Positions 1,241-10,462 of a stretch of 10,511 bases of DNA are shown here, one piece after another. Positions within the stretch are counted from its first letter, which is position 1; each line of letters begins with the position of its first letter. The position numbers and the translations under genes are program-made. The stretch spans positions 1-10,511 of the forward strand of contig CATPBM010000327.1 in assembly GCA_955652625.1 (NCBI GenBank), given 5' to 3'. The notes below the pieces were generated by a model. It was not told where the DNA came from, did not search any database, and saw nothing but the letters and a program-made list of their open reading frames with translations. The stretch comes from an uncultured Steroidobacteraceae bacterium. GTDB taxonomy: Bacteria > Pseudomonadota > Gammaproteobacteria > Steroidobacterales > Steroidobacteraceae.

Positions 1241-1678
1241 TCAGCGCAATGACCTGATGGTCGCGAGCGCTGCCTCGCGCAACCGGGCGATGGCGTCATC
1301 GATGCGGTTGACGCTGGCCTCATCGTCCTTGCCGAGACCTTCCCAGCCCTCGCCCCAGGCTTTTTGCAACTCAGCCGCGCGCGCCGGCACCGCGCCCGGA
1401 ACCACCGTCGAGAGGTCGCGAATCACGAGTACGTAGGTCCAGCCGGTACGCGGATTGCCGCCATTGACGTCCCGGTCGTATTGCGCCAGGAACACCACGC
1501 GCTCGAGCTCGGCGAGTTTGGTCAGCAGCTCGAAAGTGGCCGTGCGGATGTTGCGGTTGTGCTCGGTGCGTTCATTGCGCCAGGTGTTGTACCCAAGACT
1601 CCCCAGCGCCACGAGCAGGCTGATGAGAGCCACAGCGTTGTTGCGCAGCTGCTGGCGGAACGTGCTCATGGTGCGCAC
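1241..1678 (-). CDS. Hypothetical single-pass membrane-anchored protein
   Basis: A 145-residue protein of no family I recognise. Residues about 14-31 (AVALISLLVALGSLGYNT) form one hydrophobic helix near the N-terminus, preceded by FRQQLRNN and followed by WRNERTEHNRN. The charge pattern could place the remaining ~110 residues on either side of the inner membrane. That part is charged and looks helical (for example 'TATFELLTKLAELERVVFLAQYDRD' and the C-terminal 'RIDDAIARLREAALATIRSLR'), with a central 'GWTYVLVIRDLSTVV' segment. GTG at 1678 is favoured because GAGGG lies about 10 bases upstream; the ATG at 1669 (MSTFRQQ) is the alternative. It is convergent with the acetyltransferase gene and divergent from the DUF488 remnant. 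Coding character is good, but the function is unknown. Confidence 0.7.
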   Translation of the reverse strand: MRTMSTFRQQLRNNAVALISLLVALGSLGYNTWRNERTEHNRNIRTATFELLTKLAELERVVFLAQYDRDVNGGNPRTGWTYVLVIRDLSTVVPGAVPARAAELQKAWGEGWEGLGKDDEASVNRIDDAIARLREAALATIRSLR

Positions 1679-1682
1679 GCAT

Positions 1683-1999
1683 GATACGCCCTCGGGCGCG
1701 CGGCTGGATCGGGCGAGATATCAGCAAGGAACCCGCCGCGCTCGATGAGTGGCTGATCGATCTGGCTCCGAGCACGCTCTGCGCAAGTGGTTCCACCGTG
1801 AGCTGGCGCGCTGGCCGGAGTTCGGCACGCGCTATCGAGCCGAGCTGCGCGCCCCGCGGTGCAGTTGCAGGCGCTGCGCAAGCGCGCCGCCGGGCAGCGT
1901 GTCACTCTTCTTTATGCTGCGCGCGACGCCCACATCAACCACGCCCTCGTGCAGCAGGACGTGCTGGGCGAGTTCCGCACCGCAGCTCCTGCCGCTTAA
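1683..1999 (+). pseudogene. YeaO/DUF488-family remnant with two internal frameshifts
   Basis: Three consecutive frames together spell a DUF488 protein. Frame one gives ISKEPAALDEWLIDLAPST (1720-1776). Frame two gives LRKWFHRELARWPEFGTRY and then RAELRA (from about 1779 to 1853). Frame three gives AVQLQALRKRAAGQRVTLLY, then AARDAHINHALVQQDVLGEF and a TAA at 1997-1999. This follows, from memory, the E. coli YeaO order (LALDEWDKEITPSTELRK..., LTLLYSAKN...NHALVLADWL). One-base deletions near 1777 and 1853 explain both shifts. The conserved beginning (RVYDP...RILVDRLWPRG) is reduced to a scrambled LDR or GWIGRD. Each single frame gives only a meaningless ORF. The family's role is unknown, and the copy here is dead unless sequencing errors explain two separate indels. 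Confidence 0.85.
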
Positions 2000-2101
2000 C
2001 GGCGCTGGACCGCCCGGCGGCGCTGCCGCACAGCGGGCACGAGGGTTTGTCATCCGCGGGCCGGCACGCGCGTTTCTATCTTTGGGTGAGCCTAATCCAA
2101 T

Positions 2102-2107
2102 AAGGAG
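2102..2107 (+). promoter_or_regulatory. Strong Shine-Dalgarno site for the small lipoprotein gene
   Basis: AAGGAG lies 6 bases upstream of the ATG at 2114. It is the clearest plus-strand ribosome binding site in the window and supports the short reading frame that follows as a real gene. Confidence 0.8.
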
Positions 2108-2113
2108 CGGAAC

Positions 2114-2275
2114 ATGCGAGGCATCGTCAAATTGCTGATTGCCCTGGGATTCGGCGCGGCGCTGGGGGGCTGCGTGGTGACTCCGGTCGGACCTGGGCGC
2201 GCTTATGTCGGAGTGGGCATCGTCGTGCCGGCTCCGGTGTTCGTCGTGCACGACGGTTACTACTACCGGCACTGA
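2114..2275 (+). CDS. Small secreted lipoprotein, 53 aa
   Basis: A short gene with an ideal ribosome binding site, ending in tandem stops (TGA then TAA read through 'tgataa'). The product begins MRGIVKLLIALGFGAALGGC: one Arg and one Lys, a hydrophobic core, and a lipobox (L-G-G-C) with Cys20 as the lipidated residue. The mature peptide is only 34 residues (VVTPVGPGRAYVGVGIVVPA, then PVFVVHDGYYYRH), rich in Val, Gly, Pro and Tyr and ending in a basic aromatic tail. Small proteobacterial lipoproteins of this general look (a short VP/Y-rich chain after the lipobox) are common and mostly uncharacterised. No Asp follows the Cys, so outer-membrane sorting is likely by the +2 rule (Val at +2); that is inference. 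No clear promoter was found upstream. Confidence 0.8.
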   Translation: MRGIVKLLIALGFGAALGGCVVTPVGPGRAYVGVGIVVPAPVFVVHDGYYYRH

Positions 2276-2305
2276 TAAGCAAGCCCCCGCACCCGACAGA
2301 CGCCG

Positions 2306-2328
2306 CCTGCGCACCGTATGTGCGCGGG
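2306..2328 (+). terminator. Hairpin after the lipoprotein gene
   Basis: CCTGCGCAC-CGTAT-GTGCGCGGG folds into a 9-bp stem (one G-T pair) with a 5-nt loop, 31 bp after the lipoprotein stop. A second small GCGC-TTC-GCGC hairpin follows at once. There is no clear T-run, so this is a probable but unproven terminator separating the lipoprotein from the operon downstream. Confidence 0.45.
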
Positions 2329-2355
2329 CGCTTCGCGCGCCGTGCTTTCGCCCCC

Positions 2356-2398
2356 CTCTCCTTGCCTGCTCTCCTTGCCTGCTCTCCTTGCCTGCTCT
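2356..2398 (+). repeat. 13-bp tandem repeat, 3.3 copies
   Basis: The unit CTCTCCTTGCCTG occurs three times without mismatch (2356-2368, 2369-2381, 2382-2394), followed by a partial CTCT. It lies in the non-coding gap between the lipoprotein gene and the five-gene operon, about 95 bp before the first ATG. It is a pyrimidine-rich tract on the coding strand. The rest of the gap (2276-2492) holds only the hairpin above and no promoter I can support. Confidence 0.9.
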
Positions 2399-2492
2399 CG
2401 CGTGATCCGCAGAGCGTCGGTTAGTATCCGTCGCGGGCGGGTGAATCGCAGAAGCGCCGCCGCGCGAGGTTCGGGCGGGCTCGCGAGGGACC

Positions 2493-4805
2493 ATGATCAC
2501 AGCGAAGATTGCGGCCCTTGCGGCGCTATTGGGCGCGGTGAACGCGCTGACATGCGCCACGGCTGCCGTGCAGGTAGTCACCGGTCCCACACCCATACCC
2601 TCAGGCAACGCCCGCGCGGCGGGCGACATCACCGTCGTCAACGAGAAACTGGCCTTCGCGCTGGCAGTGCAATCGCCGGCACCGTACGGCGTGCCGCATG
2701 GCGCTCTCGTGGACATCGCGCCCGTGAGTCACGGCCGGATCGGTCGCGACCGCGTGGTATTCGCCGATTTCATTCCCAACAACTGGTCCGCCTGGCCCAA
2801 CACGTATCAGCACGTCGATATCCTGGAGCGCGGCCCGCGGCAGGCGCGTATCCGCGCCGTGCGCGACTGGGGCAAGGTGACCATCACGACGCTCTACACG
2901 CTCGCGGCGGAGTCCGATGAGATCGCCATCAGCACCACCATGACCAACGAGGGGGATAGCGCCCTGCCCGGCCTGCTCTCGGGCCTGACCCTGTGGCCGA
3001 GCAGCGGCTTTCTGTTCCCGGTTCCGGGGCTTGCCGGGGTCACGGAGGGCAAGGCCGAGGGCGCGCTGTCCGCGCGGGTGGTCGCTTACGATGCCGACTG
3101 GACCGTGACGCTGCACGCGCCCTATCTCGATCATGTGGGCTCCAACTCCAGGGACCTGTTCCTGCTGCACACGCTCGAGCCGCACGCGAGCCGCACCTTC
3201 AGCGGCTGGCTGCAGGTCGGCTCGAGCGGTGACCTCGCGCCCGTCGTCAGCGCGGAAATCCAACGCCGCCATTTACCCTTTGGCACCGTGCACGGCGTTG
3301 CCAGCACCCGCGAGGGTCAGCCGATCGGGCAACCCGTCGTGGTCGTGGAAAAGGATGGCAAGCCCTACGCCTGGGCTCTGGGACACGATGGCGGCTATAC
3401 GCTCACTCTCCCGGCGGGCGACTATGCCCTCTACGCCACCGGCCGCAACTACGCGCGCAGCGATACGACCCCGGTGAGCATTTCAGCAGGCACTAACCAG
3501 GTGCGCGACTTCCGCAATCTGGGAGGTCCGGGCCGCATCGAGTTCGCCGTGACCGATGCAGCGCGCGGCATGCCGCTGGATGCGCGCATCGTGATCAGCG
3601 AGGGCGAGAAGCCGCTGGTGGAATTTCTCGGCCGCAAGACCTTCTTCACCGAGCTCGAGCGTCGCGGGCACACGGCCATGCCGATCGCGCCAGGCCACTA
3701 CCGGTTCAGCGTCTCCTCCGGCGGCGGTTTCCTCGCGCAGGACGCCGACGTGGCGCTCAGCGTCGAGCCGGGCAGGCTCACGCAGGCCGGCGCGAAGATC
3801 AATCGGGTTTTCGCGCCGCCGGCAAGCGGCTGGTATTCCGCCGACCTGCATCATCACGCCGACCAGGCAGAAGCCGTGACGCCGCCTGCCGACCTCGCCC
3901 GCTCGCAGCTGGCCGCGGGGCTCGACGTGCTTTTCGTGAGCGATCACGACTCGACCGTCAACCATGCGCCCCTGCGTCAGATCGCGGCGCGCCGCGGCGT
4001 GCCCTTCATCCCCGGCATCGAGATGTCGCCCTCCTGGGGTCATTTCAACGCTTATCCGCTCACTCCCGGCGCGAAGCTGGCGATCGACACCAGCACGGCC
4101 AGTATCGATGTCCTCCTCGGGGAAGCGCGGCGTGAAGGCGCCACGGTGGTGCAGGTCAATCACCCCTATATTCCCTACGGCTACTTCGCCAGCCTCGATG
4201 CGGGCGTCGCACCGGGGGGTTTCAATCCGGGCTTCGACCTGATCGAAATCAATTCGTCTCAGCCGAACGACGACCCGAAAGTCCTCACGAAGCTGTGGGC
4301 CTTCTGGAATGAGGGCAAGCACTACTATCTTGCCGCGGGCAGTGATACCCACGATGTGTGGAACGAGCAATCCGGTCGCGTTCGCACCTTCGCGCACGTG
4401 CAGGGCCGGCTGACCTCCCAGGCCTTCGTGAATGCGCTTAAGGCCGGTTGCGCCTACGTCACTTACGGTCCGCTCGTATTCCCCGCCAGGCCCTTCGGGA
4501 AGATGAGAGTACGGCCGGAACAGCCGGTCACGCTCAGTTTTGAGCTTGCGTCCGTCGCCGGCCTGAAGAAGGCAGAGCTCATCGGCGGCGGCAGGGTCCT
4601 CGACACCCGCACCTTCCCCGCGAGGCCACTGCAGGCACACGCCGAGTTTGTACTTGGGGATGACGCGTACACGCCCCGGAGCGGGCCGCGCTGGTACGCC
4701 CTGATAGTGGAGGATCAGCGGGGCCACAAGGCGTACACGGACCCTTACTGGCTCATGGCGGACGCCTCCGACATGCCGCCGCCTTCGCCGGCCCGAAAGA
4801 AATAG
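2493..4805 (+). CDS. Secreted CehA/McbA-type PHP-domain metallohydrolase
   Basis: A 770-residue exported hydrolase and first gene of the operon. Residues 1-24 are a signal peptide (Lys5, hydrophobic core, cleavage near ATA-AVQ). An N-terminal beta-rich part follows. A carboxypeptidase-regulatory-like beta-sandwich lies at about 285-345 (LPFGTVHGVASTREGQP... DGGYTLTLPAGDYALYA). The PHP metal-dependent hydrolase domain starts at about 448. Its metal-binding signatures are visible: H453-x-H455, SDHD (483-486), Glu510 in GIEMS, VNHP with His557, and GSDTHD with Asp618 and His620. The family includes carbaryl hydrolase CehA and other ester, carbamate or phosphoester hydrolases. I infer release of a small phosphonate from a larger ester or amide in the periplasm; the true substrate is unknown. 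The start has GAGGGA only 2 bases away, an unusually short spacing, but the signal peptide fixes it. The stop shares one base with the next start (TAGTG). Confidence 0.88.
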   Translation: MITAKIAALAALLGAVNALTCATAAVQVVTGPTPIPSGNARAAGDITVVNEKLAFALAVQSPAPYGVPHGALVDIAPVSHGRIGRDRVVFADFIPNNWSAWPNTYQHVDILERGPRQARIRAVRDWGKVTITTLYTLAAESDEIAISTTMTNEGDSALPGLLSGLTLWPSSGFLFPVPGLAGVTEGKAEGALSARVVAYDADWTVTLHAPYLDHVGSNSRDLFLLHTLEPHASRTFSGWLQVGSSGDLAPVVSAEIQRRHLPFGTVHGVASTREGQPIGQPVVVVEKDGKPYAWALGHDGGYTLTLPAGDYALYATGRNYARSDTTPVSISAGTNQVRDFRNLGGPGRIEFAVTDAARGMPLDARIVISEGEKPLVEFLGRKTFFTELERRGHTAMPIAPGHYRFSVSSGGGFLAQDADVALSVEPGRLTQAGAKINRVFAPPASGWYSADLHHHADQAEAVTPPADLARSQLAAGLDVLFVSDHDSTVNHAPLRQIAARRGVPFIPGIEMSPSWGHFNAYPLTPGAKLAIDTSTASIDVLLGEARREGATVVQVNHPYIPYGYFASLDAGVAPGGFNPGFDLIEINSSQPNDDPKVLTKLWAFWNEGKHYYLAAGSDTHDVWNEQSGRVRTFAHVQGRLTSQAFVNALKAGCAYVTYGPLVFPARPFGKMRVRPEQPVTLSFELASVAGLKKAELIGGGRVLDTRTFPARPLQAHAEFVLGDDAYTPRSGPRWYALIVEDQRGHKAYTDPYWLMADASDMPPPSPARKK

Positions 4806-6109
4806 TGGCCGCCGCGCGGGACAGGTCGCTGCGTTATGGACAGGCCCGGACCATCCTGGTGCTGTTTGGCGGCTACGCCGCCTGTTACTACTGTCGCACA
4901 GACCTCTCGGTCGCCACGCCGCTGTTGGTCGAGGAGCTGGGAACGCACGGTATCAGCCACAGCGAGGCGCTCGTCCGCATCGGCACGCTCAGCTCGCTCG
5001 GGGTCCTCGCCTACGCGCTGGGGAAGTTGTTTCTCACCGGCCTCGGGGATTACTGGGGCGGCCGGCGCAACTTCCTCATCGGTGTCGGAGGCGCCATGGT
5101 GTTCACGCTCATATTCGCCGCCGGCGGCGCGCTCCCGGTGTTCACTCTCGCCTGGATCGGAAACCGGCTCACGCAGTCGATCGGCTGGGCGGGCCTCATC
5201 AAGGTCTCCTCCAGGTGGTTCGACTATTCATCGTATGGATCGATCATCGGCATTCTGAGCATCAGCTATCTGGTCGGCGACGCTCTCGCACGTCAACAGA
5301 TGGGGATGCTGATCGAGCACGGCTACGGCTGGCGGGGACTGTTCGGGTTCGCGGCAATCGTCGCCGGCGCCATGCTGCTCGCCAATCTGCTGTGGCTGCG
5401 CGAGTCGCGCGTCGCGGAAGGCCACGCCGCGGCCATGCCGAACCCGCTCAATCTCTTTGCCGATGCAGACTCCCGGCCCGCCAGCGTCGGCGCGCTGCTC
5501 CTGCCCCTGCTGCGCAGCCGCGCGTTTGTGCTGGTTTGCGTGCTATCGTTCGCGTGCACAATCGTCCGCGAGACCTTCAATACCTGGACGCCCGAGTACC
5601 TGCATCATCTGGGCTACAGCATGAGCCACTCCGCGACCCTGAGTGCGATCTTCCCGGCGGTGGGAGTCGTGTCCGTGCTGGTGGCCGGCTGGCTGAGCGA
5701 CCGGCTCGGGCTGAACGGCCGCTCGCTGCTGATGTTCCTCGGCCTGGGCGCTGCCGCGGCGGCGCTGCTGGCGCTCATGGTCCTGCGCTCCACTTCATCC
5801 CCCTTACTCCTTCCCGTGGCGCTGATCGGCGTCGTCGCCTTTTGCCTGCTCGGCCCCTACTCCTACCTGGGGGGCGCTTTTGCGCTCGACTTCGGCGGCA
5901 AGCAGGCGAGCGCGGCCTCCTCGGGCATCATCGATGGCATCGGCTACCTCGGCGGTGTACTTGCCGGATACGGCGTGGCGCGCCTCTCCGTTGCAGTGGG
6001 CTGGGACGGGGTGTTCCTGGCGCTGGCCGCGGTGAGCGCGTTGGCTGCCGTGTGCGCCGGAGCCCTGCACGTGTTGAATACCCGCGCCGCGAGAAGCGCC
6101 CATGCCTAG
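4805..6109 (+). CDS. MFS transporter, organophosphate:phosphate antiporter (OPA/GlpT-like) family
   Basis: A 434-residue inner-membrane carrier with about 12 hydrophobic helices and a polar central loop near 200-225. TM1 reads GGYAACYYCRTDLSVATP, matching the GlpT block 'YYLVRKNFALAMP', so Arg31 corresponds to phosphate-binding Arg45 of GlpT. TM7 reads TIVRETFNTWTPEYLHHLGY, matching 'YVLRYGILDWSPTYLKE', so Arg255 corresponds to Arg269. 'NRLTQSIGWAGL' matches the QGMGWPP segment. The residue aligned with GlpT His165 appears to be Tyr or Ser (SISYLVGDA), which suggests a different ligand. These alignments are from memory. OPA carriers swap organophosphates for inorganic phosphate; here I infer uptake of the phosphonate used by the downstream oxygenases, perhaps against the phosphate they release. 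Start is GTG, overlapping the previous stop by one base; its own stop overlaps the next gene by 8 bases. Confidence 0.88.
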   Translation: MAAARDRSLRYGQARTILVLFGGYAACYYCRTDLSVATPLLVEELGTHGISHSEALVRIGTLSSLGVLAYALGKLFLTGLGDYWGGRRNFLIGVGGAMVFTLIFAAGGALPVFTLAWIGNRLTQSIGWAGLIKVSSRWFDYSSYGSIIGILSISYLVGDALARQQMGMLIEHGYGWRGLFGFAAIVAGAMLLANLLWLRESRVAEGHAAAMPNPLNLFADADSRPASVGALLLPLLRSRAFVLVCVLSFACTIVRETFNTWTPEYLHHLGYSMSHSATLSAIFPAVGVVSVLVAGWLSDRLGLNGRSLLMFLGLGAAAAALLALMVLRSTSSPLLLPVALIGVVAFCLLGPYSYLGGAFALDFGGKQASAASSGIIDGIGYLGGVLAGYGVARLSVAVGWDGVFLALAAVSALAAVCAGALHVLNTRAARSAHA

Positions 6110-7253
6110 CCCCGCCAACGTGCGCGTGCGCGCAACGCCCGAGTCTCTCACCATCGAGTGGGGTGGCGGGGAGGTGAGTGAGTTTCCGAGCCTGTGGCTG
6201 CGCGACAACCTCTCAACGGATCGCGACGCGCACAGCGGGCAGCGGCTCATCGACATTACCGACGTGCCGGAGGGACCACGCATCCGCTCCGCGGTCGCGG
6301 AAAACTCCAGCGTGCGTATCGAGTGGGAGCGCGAATCGCGGCCGGCATCCTTCGAGCTCGCGTGGCTCGCGGCTCAGGCCGCGGGTCGCGCCCGGCAAAG
6401 ACCCGAGCTGACGGTGCGGACCTGGCTCGAGGGAGCGCGGCTTGAGCCCGCGCGTGACTTCGCCTGGATCGGGCTCGCCGAGGCCCGCGCGGACGCGCGC
6501 CTGCGTCTCGCCTGGCTGACCCGGATGTTGCAGGACGGCCTTGGATTCGTGAGCGGCGTGCCCGGCACGGAAGCGGCGATCCTCGAGACGATGCCCCTTA
6601 TCGGGCGCGTGCTCGAGACCAACTACGGGCTCACCTTCGATGTTCGCTCGCTTCCCCAGCCGGAGAATCTCGCCTATTCCGATCTGGGCCTCGGCCTGCA
6701 CACCGACAACCCCTATCGCGACCCGGTGCCGGGTTTTCAGGCGCTGCACGCGTTGATTCCTTCCAGCGAAGGCGGCGAGAGCCTGTTCGCGGATGGCTTC
6801 GCACTCGCCGGCCACCTGCGGCTGACCTCCCCCGATGACTTCGCGCAACTCACCGCCACTGCGGCGCCCTTCCACTATCGATCCGCGGACACGGATCTGT
6901 ACGCGGAACGCCCGCTGATTCAACTGACCGCGCACGGCGCGATCACGGCCGTGCACTACAACAGCCGCTCCATCGCGCCCCTGGCGTTGCCCGCGCAGCA
7001 GCTGTCCTCCTTCTATCGCGCCTACCGGCGCTTCGCCGCGCTGCTGCGCGATCCCCGTTTCCAGCTGAAAATGCGTCTCGGCAGCGAAACGCTCGTCGTC
7101 TTCGACAACCAGCGGATCCTGCACGGGCGCACCGCCTTCTCGTCCGCGAAGCTCCCACGCCACCTGCGCGGCTGTTACCTGAGCCGCGATAGCGTCTACA
7201 GCGAAACGGCCGTGCTGCGACGCCATCTCGCTGCAGAACGGGCGCGCGCATGA
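6102..7253 (+). CDS. tmpA: Fe(II)/2-oxoglutarate oxygenase, TmpA-like (GBBH/TauD family)
   Basis: A 383-residue non-heme iron oxygenase of the gamma-butyrobetaine hydroxylase type. The N-terminal DUF971-like domain (about 5-100) contains LWLRDNLSTDRDAHSGQRLIDI; the zinc-binding cysteines of classical GBBH (WLRDNCPCSDC) are absent. The catalytic jelly roll follows, with the iron triad His200-x-Asp202 in LGLHTDNPYRDPVPGFQALH and His341 in FDNQRILHGRTAF. Arg353 (LPRHLRGCY) is the expected 2-oxoglutarate anchor. GBBH-like proteins are usually called carnitine-biosynthesis enzymes. TmpA of this family instead hydroxylates C1 of 2-(trimethylammonio)ethylphosphonate, and its partner TmpB finishes the job. 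The next gene encodes just such a partner, so I assign TmpA by fold plus context; the exact phosphonate is not proven. GAGAAG lies 5 bases before the ATG, inside the transporter gene. Confidence 0.8.
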   Translation: MPSPANVRVRATPESLTIEWGGGEVSEFPSLWLRDNLSTDRDAHSGQRLIDITDVPEGPRIRSAVAENSSVRIEWERESRPASFELAWLAAQAAGRARQRPELTVRTWLEGARLEPARDFAWIGLAEARADARLRLAWLTRMLQDGLGFVSGVPGTEAAILETMPLIGRVLETNYGLTFDVRSLPQPENLAYSDLGLGLHTDNPYRDPVPGFQALHALIPSSEGGESLFADGFALAGHLRLTSPDDFAQLTATAAPFHYRSADTDLYAERPLIQLTAHGAITAVHYNSRSIAPLALPAQQLSSFYRAYRRFAALLRDPRFQLKMRLGSETLVVFDNQRILHGRTAFSSAKLPRHLRGCYLSRDSVYSETAVLRRHLAAERARA

Positions 7254-7807
7254 GCGTGGCGCAGGACATCCTCGCGCTCTACCAGGCGCGCGGCGCAGCC
7301 GCCTACTTCGGCGAGCGCGTGTCCATGACCGAGCATGGCCTGCAGGCGGCTTACTTCGCACAGGCGGAAGGCGCGCCGCAGCGGCTCGTCGTGGCAGCGC
7401 TGCTGCACGACATCGGGCATCTGCTCGAGCAGGTCCCTGACGCCATCGAGGACTGGACCATTGACGCCCGCCACGAGCAAGGCGGCGCCCGCTGGCTGGC
7501 GAAGCGTTTCAATGCGGAAATCTCCGAGCCCGTGCGCCTGCATGTCCCCGCCAAGCGTTATCTGTGCGCGGTCGATGCGCAGTACTTCGCCAGGCTCAGT
7601 CCCGCCTCGGTACACACCCTGAAACTGCAGGGCGGGCCGATGTCGGAGCGCGAGGTGGCGCAGTTCGAGGGCGAGCGTTTTTGCCAGGACGCCGTGCGGG
7701 TACGGCGCTGGGACGATCAGGGGAAAGTGGCGGGCCTCAAGACGCCGCAGTTGAGCGACTACGTCCCGTTAATCGCGGGCATGTCGCGCGGCGCGCGCAG
7801 GGCATGA
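7250..7807 (+). CDS. tmpB: HD-domain mixed-valence di-iron oxygenase, TmpB/PhnZ-like
   Basis: A 185-residue protein that looks like an HD phosphohydrolase but carries the fingerprint of PhnZ-type oxygenases, which cleave the C-P bond of a 1-hydroxyphosphonate with O2 to give a carboxylate and phosphate. Predicted iron ligands are His29, His53-Asp54, His75, His98 and Asp155. The lid pair Tyr19 and Glu22 (AYFGERVSMTEH) has the spacing of PhnZ Tyr24/Glu27 relative to the first His. His57 and Lys102 match PhnZ His62 and Lys108. From memory, PhnZ ligands are His34, His58, Asp59, His80, His104 and Asp161; spacings agree within one residue. The Tyr/Glu lid separates this group from ordinary HD hydrolases. 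The ATGA overlap with the tmpA-like gene implies translational coupling. Its likely product is glycine betaine plus phosphate if the substrate is the trimethylammonio compound. Confidence 0.87.
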   Translation: MSVAQDILALYQARGAAAYFGERVSMTEHGLQAAYFAQAEGAPQRLVVAALLHDIGHLLEQVPDAIEDWTIDARHEQGGARWLAKRFNAEISEPVRLHVPAKRYLCAVDAQYFARLSPASVHTLKLQGGPMSEREVAQFEGERFCQDAVRVRRWDDQGKVAGLKTPQLSDYVPLIAGMSRGARRA

Positions 7808-8475
7808 TTGCCAGCATGGACATCGATCCGCACGGGATTGCTCACCAGCCTTCCACTGGCGTGCGGCGCGTCCATGACACGCCGCTCGTCGCCGCCAGCG
7901 CCGCGAGCCTCGCGGGCTACGGCCATCTGGTCGACAACCCCAGGACCTTCCCCATACAGATCGTGCCGTGGCCGGCCCAGGGATGGCGCCCGATCGACAA
8001 GGACACCGGCGATCAGGGTGGCGTGACCGAGGGCCTGTTCGAGTTCACCTGGAAGGGCGAAACCCTGTACGCCAGGAACAACGCCGTGGGCGACAGTTAC
8101 CTCTTCGGCTGGAGCAACTGGCCCGAGGACGCCGCCGCGAGCAGTCCGGGAAAGAAGCGCGAGCGCGCGCTCATCTGGCGGGCGAACTATCACCCGGACG
8201 GCGGCCAGCTGTTCCATCCGCTCAACGGTGAGAGCTTTGTAGTGCCGCTGGCGCTGCCGGGCGACGACGTGACGCCTGAGAAGTTCGTCACCTTCTGGTG
8301 CGACGGCCGCAGCGGCCTGTATCTGCATCCTAACGTCTGGCACGGCGCGATCGTGCCACTCGATGACGAAGCGCAGTTTCTCGACCGCCAGGGACGCGTG
8401 CACGCGCGCGTCTCGGTCAACTTCGTCGAGGAGTTTGGCTGCTACCTGGGCGCGCCCTTGCCGGCACGGCTCTGA
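7804..8475 (+). CDS. Ureidoglycolate-lyase-fold (AllA-like) protein, enlarged
   Basis: A 223-residue protein related to E. coli AllA (160 residues), a cupin-like lyase of ureidoglycolate breakdown. The AllA opening 'LSQEAFSAYGDVIE' is echoed by ASAASLAGYGHLVDNP (32-46). The core '[25 protein letters not shown]...NYHRNVWHHPL' is echoed by HPDGGQLFHPLNGESFVVPL (130-149) and YLHPNVWHGAIVPL (173-186). Between these lies an insertion of about 40 residues (GDQGGVTEGLFEFTWKGETL and on through about 118). A purine role is unlikely, since no allantoin gene is near and the gene overlaps the tmpB-like stop (ATGA). I infer an accessory step in the phosphonate pathway, or a metal-binding cupin of unknown chemistry. 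ATG 7804 is chosen for the coupled overlap and AGGG just upstream; ATG 7816 is possible. Confidence 0.75.
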   Translation: MIASMDIDPHGIAHQPSTGVRRVHDTPLVAASAASLAGYGHLVDNPRTFPIQIVPWPAQGWRPIDKDTGDQGGVTEGLFEFTWKGETLYARNNAVGDSYLFGWSNWPEDAAASSPGKKRERALIWRANYHPDGGQLFHPLNGESFVVPLALPGDDVTPEKFVTFWCDGRSGLYLHPNVWHGAIVPLDDEAQFLDRQGRVHARVSVNFVEEFGCYLGAPLPARL

Positions 8476-8496
8476 GTCAGGCCCCTCGCCGGCTTG

Positions 8497-8538
8497 CCCC
8501 GAAGGAGCAGCGCGCTCGGCCGCGCCGGTCCTTCGGGG
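8497..8538. terminator. Bidirectional hairpin between convergent genes
   Basis: CCCCGAAGGA (8497-8506) and TCCTTCGGGG (8529-8538) are a perfect 10-bp inverted repeat, with further GC pairing possible inside the 22-nt loop. It lies between the end of the AllA-like gene (8475) and the stop of the amidase gene (8557), so it can end transcription from both sides. There is no long T-run on either side. Confidence 0.75.
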
Positions 8539-8556
8539 TCATCGCTGTTGCTGTCC

Positions 8557-10344
8557 TTACATGTGATGCGGGTGCCATTCGGCCGGCCGCGCGTCGTCGT
8601 GGGGCGGGTGCTTGACGTTCAGCGGCTCGCCCGCGATATGGTCGTCCGGAATCGTGGGAGTGAACTTCGGCAGATTCTTGGCGCGCTCGTGGGTGACGGC
8701 CTCAAAACCTGACGCCAGCGTTATCAGCTTCGGCTCACTGAAGGCCGTGCCGAAGAAAGTGATGCCGAGCGGAATGCCAAACACGTTCGCCGCCGGCACC
8801 TGGATGTAGGGATAGCCTCCCGGAGCGCCGAGACTGGAGCTGCCGAAAATGAAGTGATCCCCGTAGAGCAGATCCGTCGACCACGCCGGGTTGTCCGTCG
8901 GCGCCACGACCGCATCGAGGTGGAACGTGCTGAGCGCCAAATCGACGCCGTTGACCGTGGCTGCCTTGTCGATCGCCAGCGCCTGGTTGTAGGTCGTGCC
9001 GACAGGAACGCCGAGATTTGGGTCGGTTTGCGGAGTGTTGGCACCCGGCCGCAGCGCCTGCGCCTCCAGGAAGATCTCCTGCCCCCAGAAGGGCATTTCC
9101 GCATCGGCATTCGCATTGTTGAACGCGATCGCGTCCGCCAGCGTCTCGCCGGCCATCGGAACGCCAACACGCGTCGCGAAATAGGCCTGCAGGTCGCTCT
9201 TGAAGTCAAACTCCAGGACGAGTGTCTCGCCAGTTGCCACCGGGAAGGTGAATGCCGGGGAGATGCTCGCGTGCGGGCCGTCGAGCTCGATGACGGTCGC
9301 GCCCGCATCGCTCAGGGCGTCCAGCACGGCCTCGAACGCCGCGATCACACGCGCCGGCGCGCTATCGATACCCTGGCGCGTCACACCCAGGCGCGCACCG
9401 TGCAAGCCGTTTGCGTTGAGGAACTGCGTGTAGTCGGTCGGAATGTTTGTGGGACGGGTGAAGCGTCCCTGCCAGCCCAGGGGTACGCCCCCGGTGGCGG
9501 AATCGCGGCCGTCAAAGGTCCGGCTTTGCATCACGCCCAGGGTGACGGCTGCATCGGCGACGGTGCGCGCGTGCGGGCCGATCGTGTCCTGCGTATGCGA
9601 AATGGGCACGACGCCTGCGCGGCTGGTGAGGCCGACCGTCGGCTTGATCCCGACCACACCATTGGCGTTCCCGGGGCATACGATGCTGCCATCGGTCTCA
9701 GTCCCCAGAGATACGGTCGCGAAGTTCGCGGATGCAGCGGCTCCGGAACCGGAGCTCGAGCCGCACGGGTTGCGATCCAGGCCGTAGGGGTTGTGAGTCT
9801 GGCCGCCCACCGCCGACCAGCCGCTGACAGAGAAGAACGAGCGGAAATTCGCCCACTCCGACAGGTTGGTCTTGCCGAGGATCACCGCGCCTCCCTTGCG
9901 CAGGTTGGCGGCGACCGTCGAATCGTGCAGCGCCGGAGTGCCCTGCAGCGCGAGGGAGCCTGCCGTGGTCTGCATCTTGTCGCCGGTGTCGATGTTGGCT
10001 TTCAGCAGCACCGGAATCCCGTGCAGGGGCCCGAGCACCTTGCCCTTGCGCCGCATCGCGTCCGCGTGGCGCGCGAGCGTCAGTGCATCGGGATTCAACT
10101 CGATGAGCGCGTTCACTCCGAGTGAGTCACGATCGCCCTGGTCGAGCTTCTCGATGCGCCGGATGTACGCACTCGTGAGGCGTTCCGAGGTCAGCCGCCC
10201 CGCGGTCATCTCAGCCTGTAGCTGAGCCACCGTGGCTTCCAGAAACGGGAAATCGTCATCTTTGTCCTTGGGAGCGGCCTTCGCTGCCAGCGGCGAAAGC
10301 AACAGTGCAATGACCAGAATCCTGGCTGCCATGCGCGATGTCAT
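8557..10344 (-). CDS. Exported amidase-signature family hydrolase
   Basis: A 595-residue enzyme of the amidase signature family, which hydrolyses amide bonds through a Ser-cisSer-Lys triad. Residues 1-24 are a signal peptide (MTSRMAARILVIALLLSPLA, cleavage near AKAA), so it acts in the envelope. Catalytic Lys115 lies in LHGIPVLLKANIDTGDK. The Gly/Ser-rich segment NPCGSSSGSGAAAS (192-205) supplies the cis-Ser (Ser197 or Ser198). Ser220 in GTETDGSIVCP is the nucleophile; most relatives have GGSIRxP here. The C-terminal tail (about 570-595) is rich in His, Pro and Asp. Length is on the long side for the family, as seen in exported members with extra C-terminal segments. The ATG at 10344 is chosen because GGAGG lies 7 bases upstream; an ATG at 10371 lacks such a site and would spoil the signal peptide. 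Substrate unknown. It is convergent with the operon, so co-regulation is not expected. Confidence 0.92.
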   Translation of the reverse strand: MTSRMAARILVIALLLSPLAAKAAPKDKDDDFPFLEATVAQLQAEMTAGRLTSERLTSAYIRRIEKLDQGDRDSLGVNALIELNPDALTLARHADAMRRKGKVLGPLHGIPVLLKANIDTGDKMQTTAGSLALQGTPALHDSTVAANLRKGGAVILGKTNLSEWANFRSFFSVSGWSAVGGQTHNPYGLDRNPCGSSSGSGAAASANFATVSLGTETDGSIVCPGNANGVVGIKPTVGLTSRAGVVPISHTQDTIGPHARTVADAAVTLGVMQSRTFDGRDSATGGVPLGWQGRFTRPTNIPTDYTQFLNANGLHGARLGVTRQGIDSAPARVIAAFEAVLDALSDAGATVIELDGPHASISPAFTFPVATGETLVLEFDFKSDLQAYFATRVGVPMAGETLADAIAFNNANADAEMPFWGQEIFLEAQALRPGANTPQTDPNLGVPVGTTYNQALAIDKAATVNGVDLALSTFHLDAVVAPTDNPAWSTDLLYGDHFIFGSSSLGAPGGYPYIQVPAANVFGIPLGITFFGTAFSEPKLITLASGFEAVTHERAKNLPKFTPTIPDDHIAGEPLNVKHPPHDDARPAEWHPHHM

Positions 10345-10462
10345 GTTATTCCTCCGGGGGGCCGGGAGCATGAGCCGGGCAGGAAACGCCAGTCATTGGA
10401 TCGCTCCCTGCGCCGGCTTTTGTTGTTGCTCGAGACCAGTTGGTTAGTCGTTAGTTGGGCGC

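Follow-up and report, generated by a model that had tools for sequence, protein, structure and literature searches.

Gene content of the locus

The stretch of DNA analysed here, hereafter the window, is the entire 10,511-nucleotide (nt) contig CATPBM010000327.1 (G000:C327) of an uncultured Steroidobacteraceae bacterium (assembly GCA_955652625.1), whose genome spans 1.77 Mb in 373 contigs and is 63.9% complete. It carries five co-directional open reading frames (ORFs) on the forward strand that probably form a coherent phosphonate operon, a TmpA/TmpB-pathway variant that includes two accessory genes, real but of putative role. These encode a probably secreted PHP metallohydrolase of the CehA/McbA kind (2493..4805; NF038032), an OPA-kind MFS carrier and candidate phosphonate importer (4805..6109; from its best NCBIfam matches and SLC37A4), a TmpA-like Fe(II)/2-oxoglutarate (Fe/2OG) dioxygenase, the predicted C1 hydroxylase of an N-methylated aminoethylphosphonate (6102..7253; NF049936, 6npb), a TmpB/PhnZ-like HD-domain di-iron oxygenase predicted to cleave the C-P bond (7250..7807; TIGR03276, 6npa), and an AllA-like protein with a ureidoglycolate lyase fold (7804..8475, start possibly 7816; PF04115, AlphaFold model). 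All five family assignments had been made in an initial annotation and were borne out by profile and Protein Data Bank (PDB) matches.

As called, the genes overlap by 1, 8, 4, and 4 nt, and the ORF coordinates and junction letters agree with these values, which the initial annotation had also given; the first three overlaps are firm, and the last depends on the AllA-like start. A Met occupies the column of AllA-like residue 5 in 30 of 36 aligned relatives, and 21 of the 36 start there as called (relatives' genes were called by home-made hexamer scoring, and their start positions are approximate). Because relatives share this Met column, the gene may start at 7816, leaving an 8-nt gap after the TmpB-like gene; five family loci with these two genes side by side have gaps of 5–64 nt. 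The same five genes occur in the same order in four other genomes (L014/L114, L016/L107, L020/L120, and L004, where the PHP gene is cut by the contig end), so the five-gene cluster is not a chance arrangement.

The TmpA-like and TmpB-like oxygenases

The closest solved protein to the TmpA-like dioxygenase is TmpA itself (6npb, E 1.7e-69 in a PDB search). Residues N187, N287, and R288 of TmpA hydrogen-bond the phosphonate, and aromatic residues could stabilise the trimethyl group (PMC9296572; this and the other papers from which we take background are cited from excerpts). At these three columns the window has N, S, and R, compared with N, N, and R in 6npb, and its Fe(II) HxD...H triad is intact. 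The four aromatic cage columns read Y, F, Y, and Y, identical to 6npb; we take them to correspond to Y177, W181, Y194, and Y366 of human GBBH (hBBOX). Of the 64 aligned rows (58 different), 30 have the complete 11-column pattern of 6npb, another 17, two of them the window, change only N287 to Ser, and the rest carry other changes. In the tree, 6npb belongs to a 9-row clade (support 100/99) distinct from the 50-row clade of the window (98/100); human GBBH and DfmD are long branches of unsure placement.

The TmpB-like protein reaches the cut-off of TIGR03276 (216.7 bits, cut-off 214.6) and matches both TmpB (6npa, E 5.7e-42) and PhnZ (4mlm, E 2e-30) in the PDB. The di-iron ligands H..HD..H..H..D and a YxxE loop are described for phosphonate HD-domain oxygenases (PMC8177086). 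These residues, together with Lys108, are kept in 87 of 88 TmpB rows including the window, the one exception being gapped at YxxE. Lys108 presumably has a functional role in TmpB.

Since the catalytic and substrate-binding residues are kept and phosphonate genes lie beside related loci, oxidative organophosphonate use by this pair is well supported on sequence grounds. Specificity left aside, the pair would be expected to share the chemistry of TmpA and TmpB. We call the proteins TmpA-like and TmpB-like because both score below the NCBI TmpA and TmpB cut-offs and the TmpA-like clade is separate.

The genome also encodes a second Fe/2OG dioxygenase on another contig (G000:C285; L166:3643-5354), which scores 357.2 bits with NF049936 and overlaps an HD/MIOX-like gene. 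This may be another oxygenase pair; its ligand residues differ.

The carrier and the conserved core

The best NCBIfam matches of the carrier are PgtP, UhpC, and GlpT, all below cut-off: TIGR00881 gives 142.7 bits against a cut-off of 407.75, and other GlpT, UhpT, and PgtP models score lower. Its best PDB match is the glucose-6-phosphate exchanger SLC37A4 (E 4e-18), and the Arg of its first helix (GY..YY..R) aligns with an Arg of SLC37A4 that we assume to be functional there. Pseudomonas putida needs AepP, a GlpT-related MFS protein, to grow on aminoethylphosphonate as nitrogen source (PMC8316502), and because AepP serves aminoethylphosphonate use, phosphonate import by the window's carrier would be a natural role. 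A DUF5690 membrane-type protein, encoded beside TmpA in one relative (L028:4865-6229) and near TmpB and PhnX in another (L162:9241-10485), is a further candidate phosphonate carrier.

Of 200 genomes from the window's family, 65 have a TmpB-like gene, at 68 places in all: the window, 59 loci that were fetched, and eight that were not (G027, G072, G130, G134, G154, two of G050, and G194:C202). An OPA-like carrier lies upstream of TmpB in 41 of the 59 fetched loci, and 35 of those, across several genera, have TmpA as well. TmpA directly precedes TmpB in 47 gene calls (L107-L161 plus the window), with an overlap of exactly 4 nt in 36.

PHP (8/59) and AllA-like (6/59) genes are partial additions to this core, which is commoner without them than with them. 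The five-gene operon for phosphonate use that the initial annotation had put forward therefore holds in part. The oxygenase pair is supported by residues and context and the full order recurs in four other genomes; a fixed five-gene unit is rejected, the cluster being layered, with PHP and AllA-like genes also found apart from the core.

Two further arrangements were seen among the TmpB loci. A TmpB-like domain is fused to a C-terminal HAD hydrolase domain in L139:7164-8405 (reverse strand; scanned) and, judged from length and clustering, in L146, L156, and L157; these fusion genes follow a DctA-like carrier gene and TmpA and precede an MFS gene. A methyltransferase-like gene lies directly 3' of TmpB in L147:8436-9239 (scanned), with members of the same cluster in L144 and L152.

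Phosphonate and N-methyl genes near related loci

Known phosphonate genes accompany several relatives of the core. L137 carries three genes downstream of a carrier-TmpB pair: one of the enolase superfamily, one for an FAD oxidoreductase matching TIGR03364 (429.8 bits, cut-off 285.1), and PhnX (309.7 bits, cut-off 220); the same FAD gene and PhnX follow TmpA-TmpB in L153 (by clustering), and both lie near TmpB in L162 (by similarity). A TmpB/PhnZ-like match was also obtained in 36 of 397 genomes from outside the family. Among the 20 such places fetched, TmpA-like is directly upstream in eight, and six (L196, L201, L202, L208, L209, and L211) are near flagged PhnW, PhnX, TIGR03364, or PhnC/D/E/M-like genes.

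Genus relatives carry, as examined on L112, an opposite-strand M14 peptidase gene followed by TMADH/histamine-dehydrogenase-like, Rieske oxygenase, and MFS genes. The TMADH-like gene product matches trimethylamine dehydrogenase (E 1e-154); the Rieske protein matches carnitine monooxygenase 6y8j (E 1e-45) and scores 196 bits with the GbcA model (cut-off 670). TMADH is found in the examined stretch of 8 of 56 TmpB loci (L046, L107, L109, L112, L114, L120, L122, and L135), seven of which also have the Rieske gene. Across the genus, the Rieske gene is present in 11 of 19 TmpB-bearing genomes versus 2 of 20 TmpB-lacking ones, one of these two genes being broken (the 20 are the TmpB-lacking genomes listed, not necessarily all). 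The window's own genome has a TMADH-like gene split over contigs C170 and C228, followed by a Rieske gene on G000:C228.

On the window's contig, the place of this set after the operon is taken by a convergent amidase gene (8557-10371, reverse strand; NF006006, 543.8 bits, cut-off 534), a relative of which occupies the same place in L004. A scan of window positions 1600-8700 found no sigma-70-like site and six terminator-like sites against 3.8 expected, which we did not use as evidence. Neither a tRNA nor an RNA family at gathering score was found in the window.

The PHP metallohydrolase

The PHP protein falls in the CehA/McbA group (NF038032, 209.2 bits, cut-off 80), with a match to PF13620 under the cut-off (29.1 bits against 32.3). 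It comprises a signal-like N-terminus (judged by eye), a beta-rich middle, and a C-terminal PHP domain at about residues 446-754. Within this protein H453, H455, D484, H485, E510, H557, D618, and H620 are invariant in all eight aligned sequences, and we take them to be the PHP metal motifs. The structure model was too weak (pLDDT 70.8) for its fold matches to be used; these, including rhamnogalacturonan lyase and mutarotase, reach a TM-score of at most 0.18 on the query among the 50 matches listed.

Among the genus genomes, PHP genes occur in 9 of the 19 with TmpB and in none of the 20 listed without it. The gene is upstream of the carrier in eight of these nine (the exception is G054), and also in L134 from another genus. 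It adjoins an AllA-like gene without TmpAB in L012, L025, and L026, and in L028 it sits beside MFS and AllA-like genes, divergent from the DUF5690 and TmpA-like genes. CehA/McbA enzymes hydrolyse carbamate pesticides (PMC8292978).

The AllA-like protein and its neighbourhoods

The AllA-like protein scores above the gathering score of PF04115 (43.6 bits against 23) and at most 40.1 bits with the NCBIfam AllA models, under their cut-offs of 160-315. Its AlphaFold model (pLDDT 90.6) has ureidoglycolate hydrolase 2bdr as best Foldseek match (E 2e-9, 16% identity).

Scanning species genomes with this protein yielded 45 loci. We flagged phosphonate genes in the fetched flanks by similarity to reference proteins, some of them named by NCBIfam/Pfam (PhnM, PhnC, PhnD, PhnE, TIGR03223, PhnW, PhnX, and TIGR03364), dropping PhnC/K/L-type matches below 45% identity. 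A flagged gene is present in 14 of the 45 loci, which we count as about six lineages. TmpA and TmpB are both nearby in nine (L004, L006, L008, L009, L014, L016, L020, L046, and L035) and TmpA alone in L028. L013 and L032 place the AllA-like gene near PhnCDE, PhnM, and probable C-P lyase genes; from their position we assume the C-P lyase genes to include PhnI, J, K, L, and N, and the PhnI and PhnJ candidates have no NCBIfam match. PhnD-PhnC-PhnE is directly upstream in L033 and PhnW in L047 (TIGR02326, 497.8 bits, cut-off 400.8). No phosphonate gene was flagged in the other 31 loci, several of which are on short contigs and one of which (L038) was tried with the five window proteins only. None was flagged at 20 further AllA-like places either: 18 come from the 22 family places not adjacent to TmpB, having been chosen for that, two belong to other families, and 11 of the 20 are, judged by length, contigs already counted. 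Four AllA-like places (G176:C425, two of G086, and G122) were left unfetched. In L003, a gene beside AllA-like (with relatives in L031 and L034) encodes a protein of alkaline-phosphatase-superfamily look by eye, for which NCBIfam, Pfam, and the PDB gave no match.

At genome level, TmpB is present in 24 of 25 family genomes with an AllA-like gene versus 41 of 175 without (Fisher p 1e-12, shared descent ignored). All seven AllA-like genes found in the window's genus lie downstream of TmpB-like, one of them past a 2.3-kb insertion. Only 2 of 397 other genomes of the phylum have an AllA-like gene, and both also carry a TmpB/PhnZ-like gene elsewhere in the genome. This association with phosphonate genes is the most surprising part of the cluster. 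Judged by titles and abstract openings, none of the papers listed in our literature searches deals with this cluster or with an AllA-like protein in phosphonate use. A term search found no ureidoglycolate, MFS, or DUF5690 in the text of PMC12366243 and PMC10590968, and no ureidoglycolate or MFS in that of PMC8154272.

Proposed pathway and alternative explanations

We propose that the operon scavenges phosphorus from an N-methylated 2-aminoethylphosphonate by uptake and oxidative C-P cleavage, a reading to which we assign a probability of roughly 0.68; the likeliest substrate is 2-(trimethylammonio)ethylphosphonate or a closely similar compound. The OPA-type carrier would import the phosphonate, probably against phosphate; judging from their residues, the TmpA-like enzyme would hydroxylate its C1 and the TmpB-like enzyme would cleave the C-P bond, giving phosphate and glycine betaine or an analogue. 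Rieske and TMADH-like enzymes may use the methylated product through N-demethylation. The conserved aromatic cage speaks for an N-methylated substrate, as do the N-demethylation-type genes of relatives and of the window's genome. The PHP hydrolase might act outside the cytoplasm to release the phosphonate from a conjugate (an ester, amide, or carbamate), a guess prompted by the carbamate pesticides that CehA/McbA enzymes hydrolyse, and the AllA-like protein might act on a small product or side product.

Several observations weigh against this proposal. Both enzymes miss the curated cut-offs (343.6 bits for the TmpA-like protein with NF049936, cut-off 400; 201.2 bits for the TmpB-like protein with NF049941, cut-off 300), N287 is Ser in the window, and its TmpA-like clade sits on a long stem (1.41) apart from characterised TmpA. 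The core also varies: 6 of 59 loci carry carrier and TmpB without TmpA (L109, L112, L127, L135, L137, and L148), 12 carry TmpA-TmpB with no upstream carrier (five with an MFS match downstream; L110 and L129 cut by contig ends), and six have neither upstream of TmpB. The genomes of the six carrier-TmpB-only loci have no TmpA-like match above 41% identity, and G191 none at E 1e-20. Finally, the association of Rieske and TmpB genes in the genus (Fisher p 0.002) ignores shared descent, and 8 of 19 TmpB-bearing genus genomes have no Rieske match. Carrier-TmpB-only genomes may import phosphonates that already bear the hydroxyl group, or they may rely on a distant TmpA paralog.

The separate, long-stemmed clade, the N287S change, and the TmpB model score below cut-off would also suit the same oxidative C-P cleavage on another phosphonate, such as an unmethylated, dimethylated, or 2-hydroxy-substituted one, with a clade that has moved away from the specificity of TmpA. 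Four g7 loci (L131, L136, L141, and L145, by clustering, with L136 alone scanned) count for it too: each has an LldD-like FMN alpha-hydroxyacid dehydrogenase gene immediately ahead of TmpA-TmpB, and a hydroxyacid product would go well with such a neighbour. The window nevertheless has an aromatic residue at each of the four cage positions, and some members of the genus have N-demethylation-type genes along with the operon; we regard a different phosphonate as unlikely. A carnitine/gamma-butyrobetaine-type pathway with a misnamed dioxygenase is far less probable still. The dioxygenase superfamily is the same, the GBBH model scores 280.6 bits, and relatives have a carnitine-monooxygenase-like Rieske gene, but the TmpA model outscores that of GBBH by 63 bits, and human GBBH has Ala at the position of the retained R288. 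The dioxygenase is also paired with a PhnZ-type oxygenase, and PhnX neighbours the core in relatives; we rejected the carnitine-type reading on the TmpA-like residues and model scores.

Compatible with the proposed core is the somewhat unlikely case that the PHP and AllA-like proteins play no part in phosphonate use and are passengers or serve another pathway. It would account for the AllA-like genes without a flagged phosphonate gene (31 of 45 loci and all 20 further places, with 18 of the latter chosen as non-adjacent to TmpB), for PHP beside AllA-like without TmpAB, and for the commoner core lacking both. It sits less well with AllA-like genes near C-P lyase/PhnCDE, PhnDCE, PhnW, TmpAB, and TmpA outside the window's genus (L013, L032, L033, L047, L035, and L028), with TmpB in 24 of 25 AllA-like-bearing family genomes, and with PHP confined to TmpB-bearing genomes among the genus genomes listed. 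The initial annotation had named a neighbourhood unique to this genome, together with families occurring apart elsewhere, as a sign against its proposal; the neighbourhood is not unique, and PHP and AllA-like genes do occur without the core.

Added to a central enzyme pair of known type, the secreted hydrolase and AllA-like protein suggest an undescribed pathway extension, and a route that would start from a conjugated phosphonate, as first put forward in the initial annotation, is a plausible proposal. We consider it doubtful that phosphonate pathways include the AllA-like protein as a hitherto unrecognised lyase, which would split the hydroxylated intermediate or C-P cleaved product and, with PHP and carrier, open a route for conjugated N-substituted phosphonates; the idea arises because a C1-hydroxylated N-carbamoyl aminophosphonate can be a ureidoglycolate isostere. 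A general phosphonate role for the AllA-like protein would fit the recurrence of its gene near C-P lyase, PhnDCE, PhnW, and TmpAB genes.

Comparison with known systems

The TmpA/TmpB pathway of Leisingera caerulea was reportedly established by Rajakovich et al. in 2019. The window shares its order of an Fe/2OG dioxygenase and then an HD di-iron oxygenase, with the same catalytic and most of the substrate residues. Unlike that two-gene operon, described in PMC10574752, the window's core includes an OPA carrier, to which PHP and AllA-like genes are added, and its enzymes fall under the curated cut-offs, with the TmpA-like protein in a separate clade. Four versions of oxidative phosphonate breakdown have been described, for aminoethyl-, methyl-, and trimethylaminoethylphosphonate and as fungal PhoF (PMC10574752). 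The PhnY*/PhnZ aminoethylphosphonate pathway has the same two-step logic (PMC10574752, PMC8177086), and its PhnZ is related to the TmpB-like protein; the window's second enzyme is nearer TmpB, and its first is nearest TmpA among solved proteins.

AepP of Pseudomonas putida BIRD-1 is likewise an OPA-family MFS protein tied to phosphonate catabolism, reported together with PhnWAY, PhnWX, or putative catabolic genes and likened here to the carrier by description, not by sequence (PMC8316502). The CehA/McbA carbamate hydrolases share the PHP-type metallohydrolase family (NF038032; PMC8292978), whereas the window's PHP gene is operonic with phosphonate genes. AllA ureidoglycolate lyase (1xsq, 2bdr) has its fold and core motif in common with the AllA-like protein, which is longer (223 aa versus 168-175 aa), has 16% identity in the structural alignment, and misses the NCBIfam AllA cut-offs.

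In this one bacterial family, the TmpA/TmpB-like proteins form a divergent clade that comes with a candidate carrier of its own and, in some members of one genus, with N-demethylation-type genes. Two questions thereby become directly testable: which phosphonate these bacteria use, and whether conjugated phosphonates come within reach of the pathway through the PHP and AllA-like proteins.

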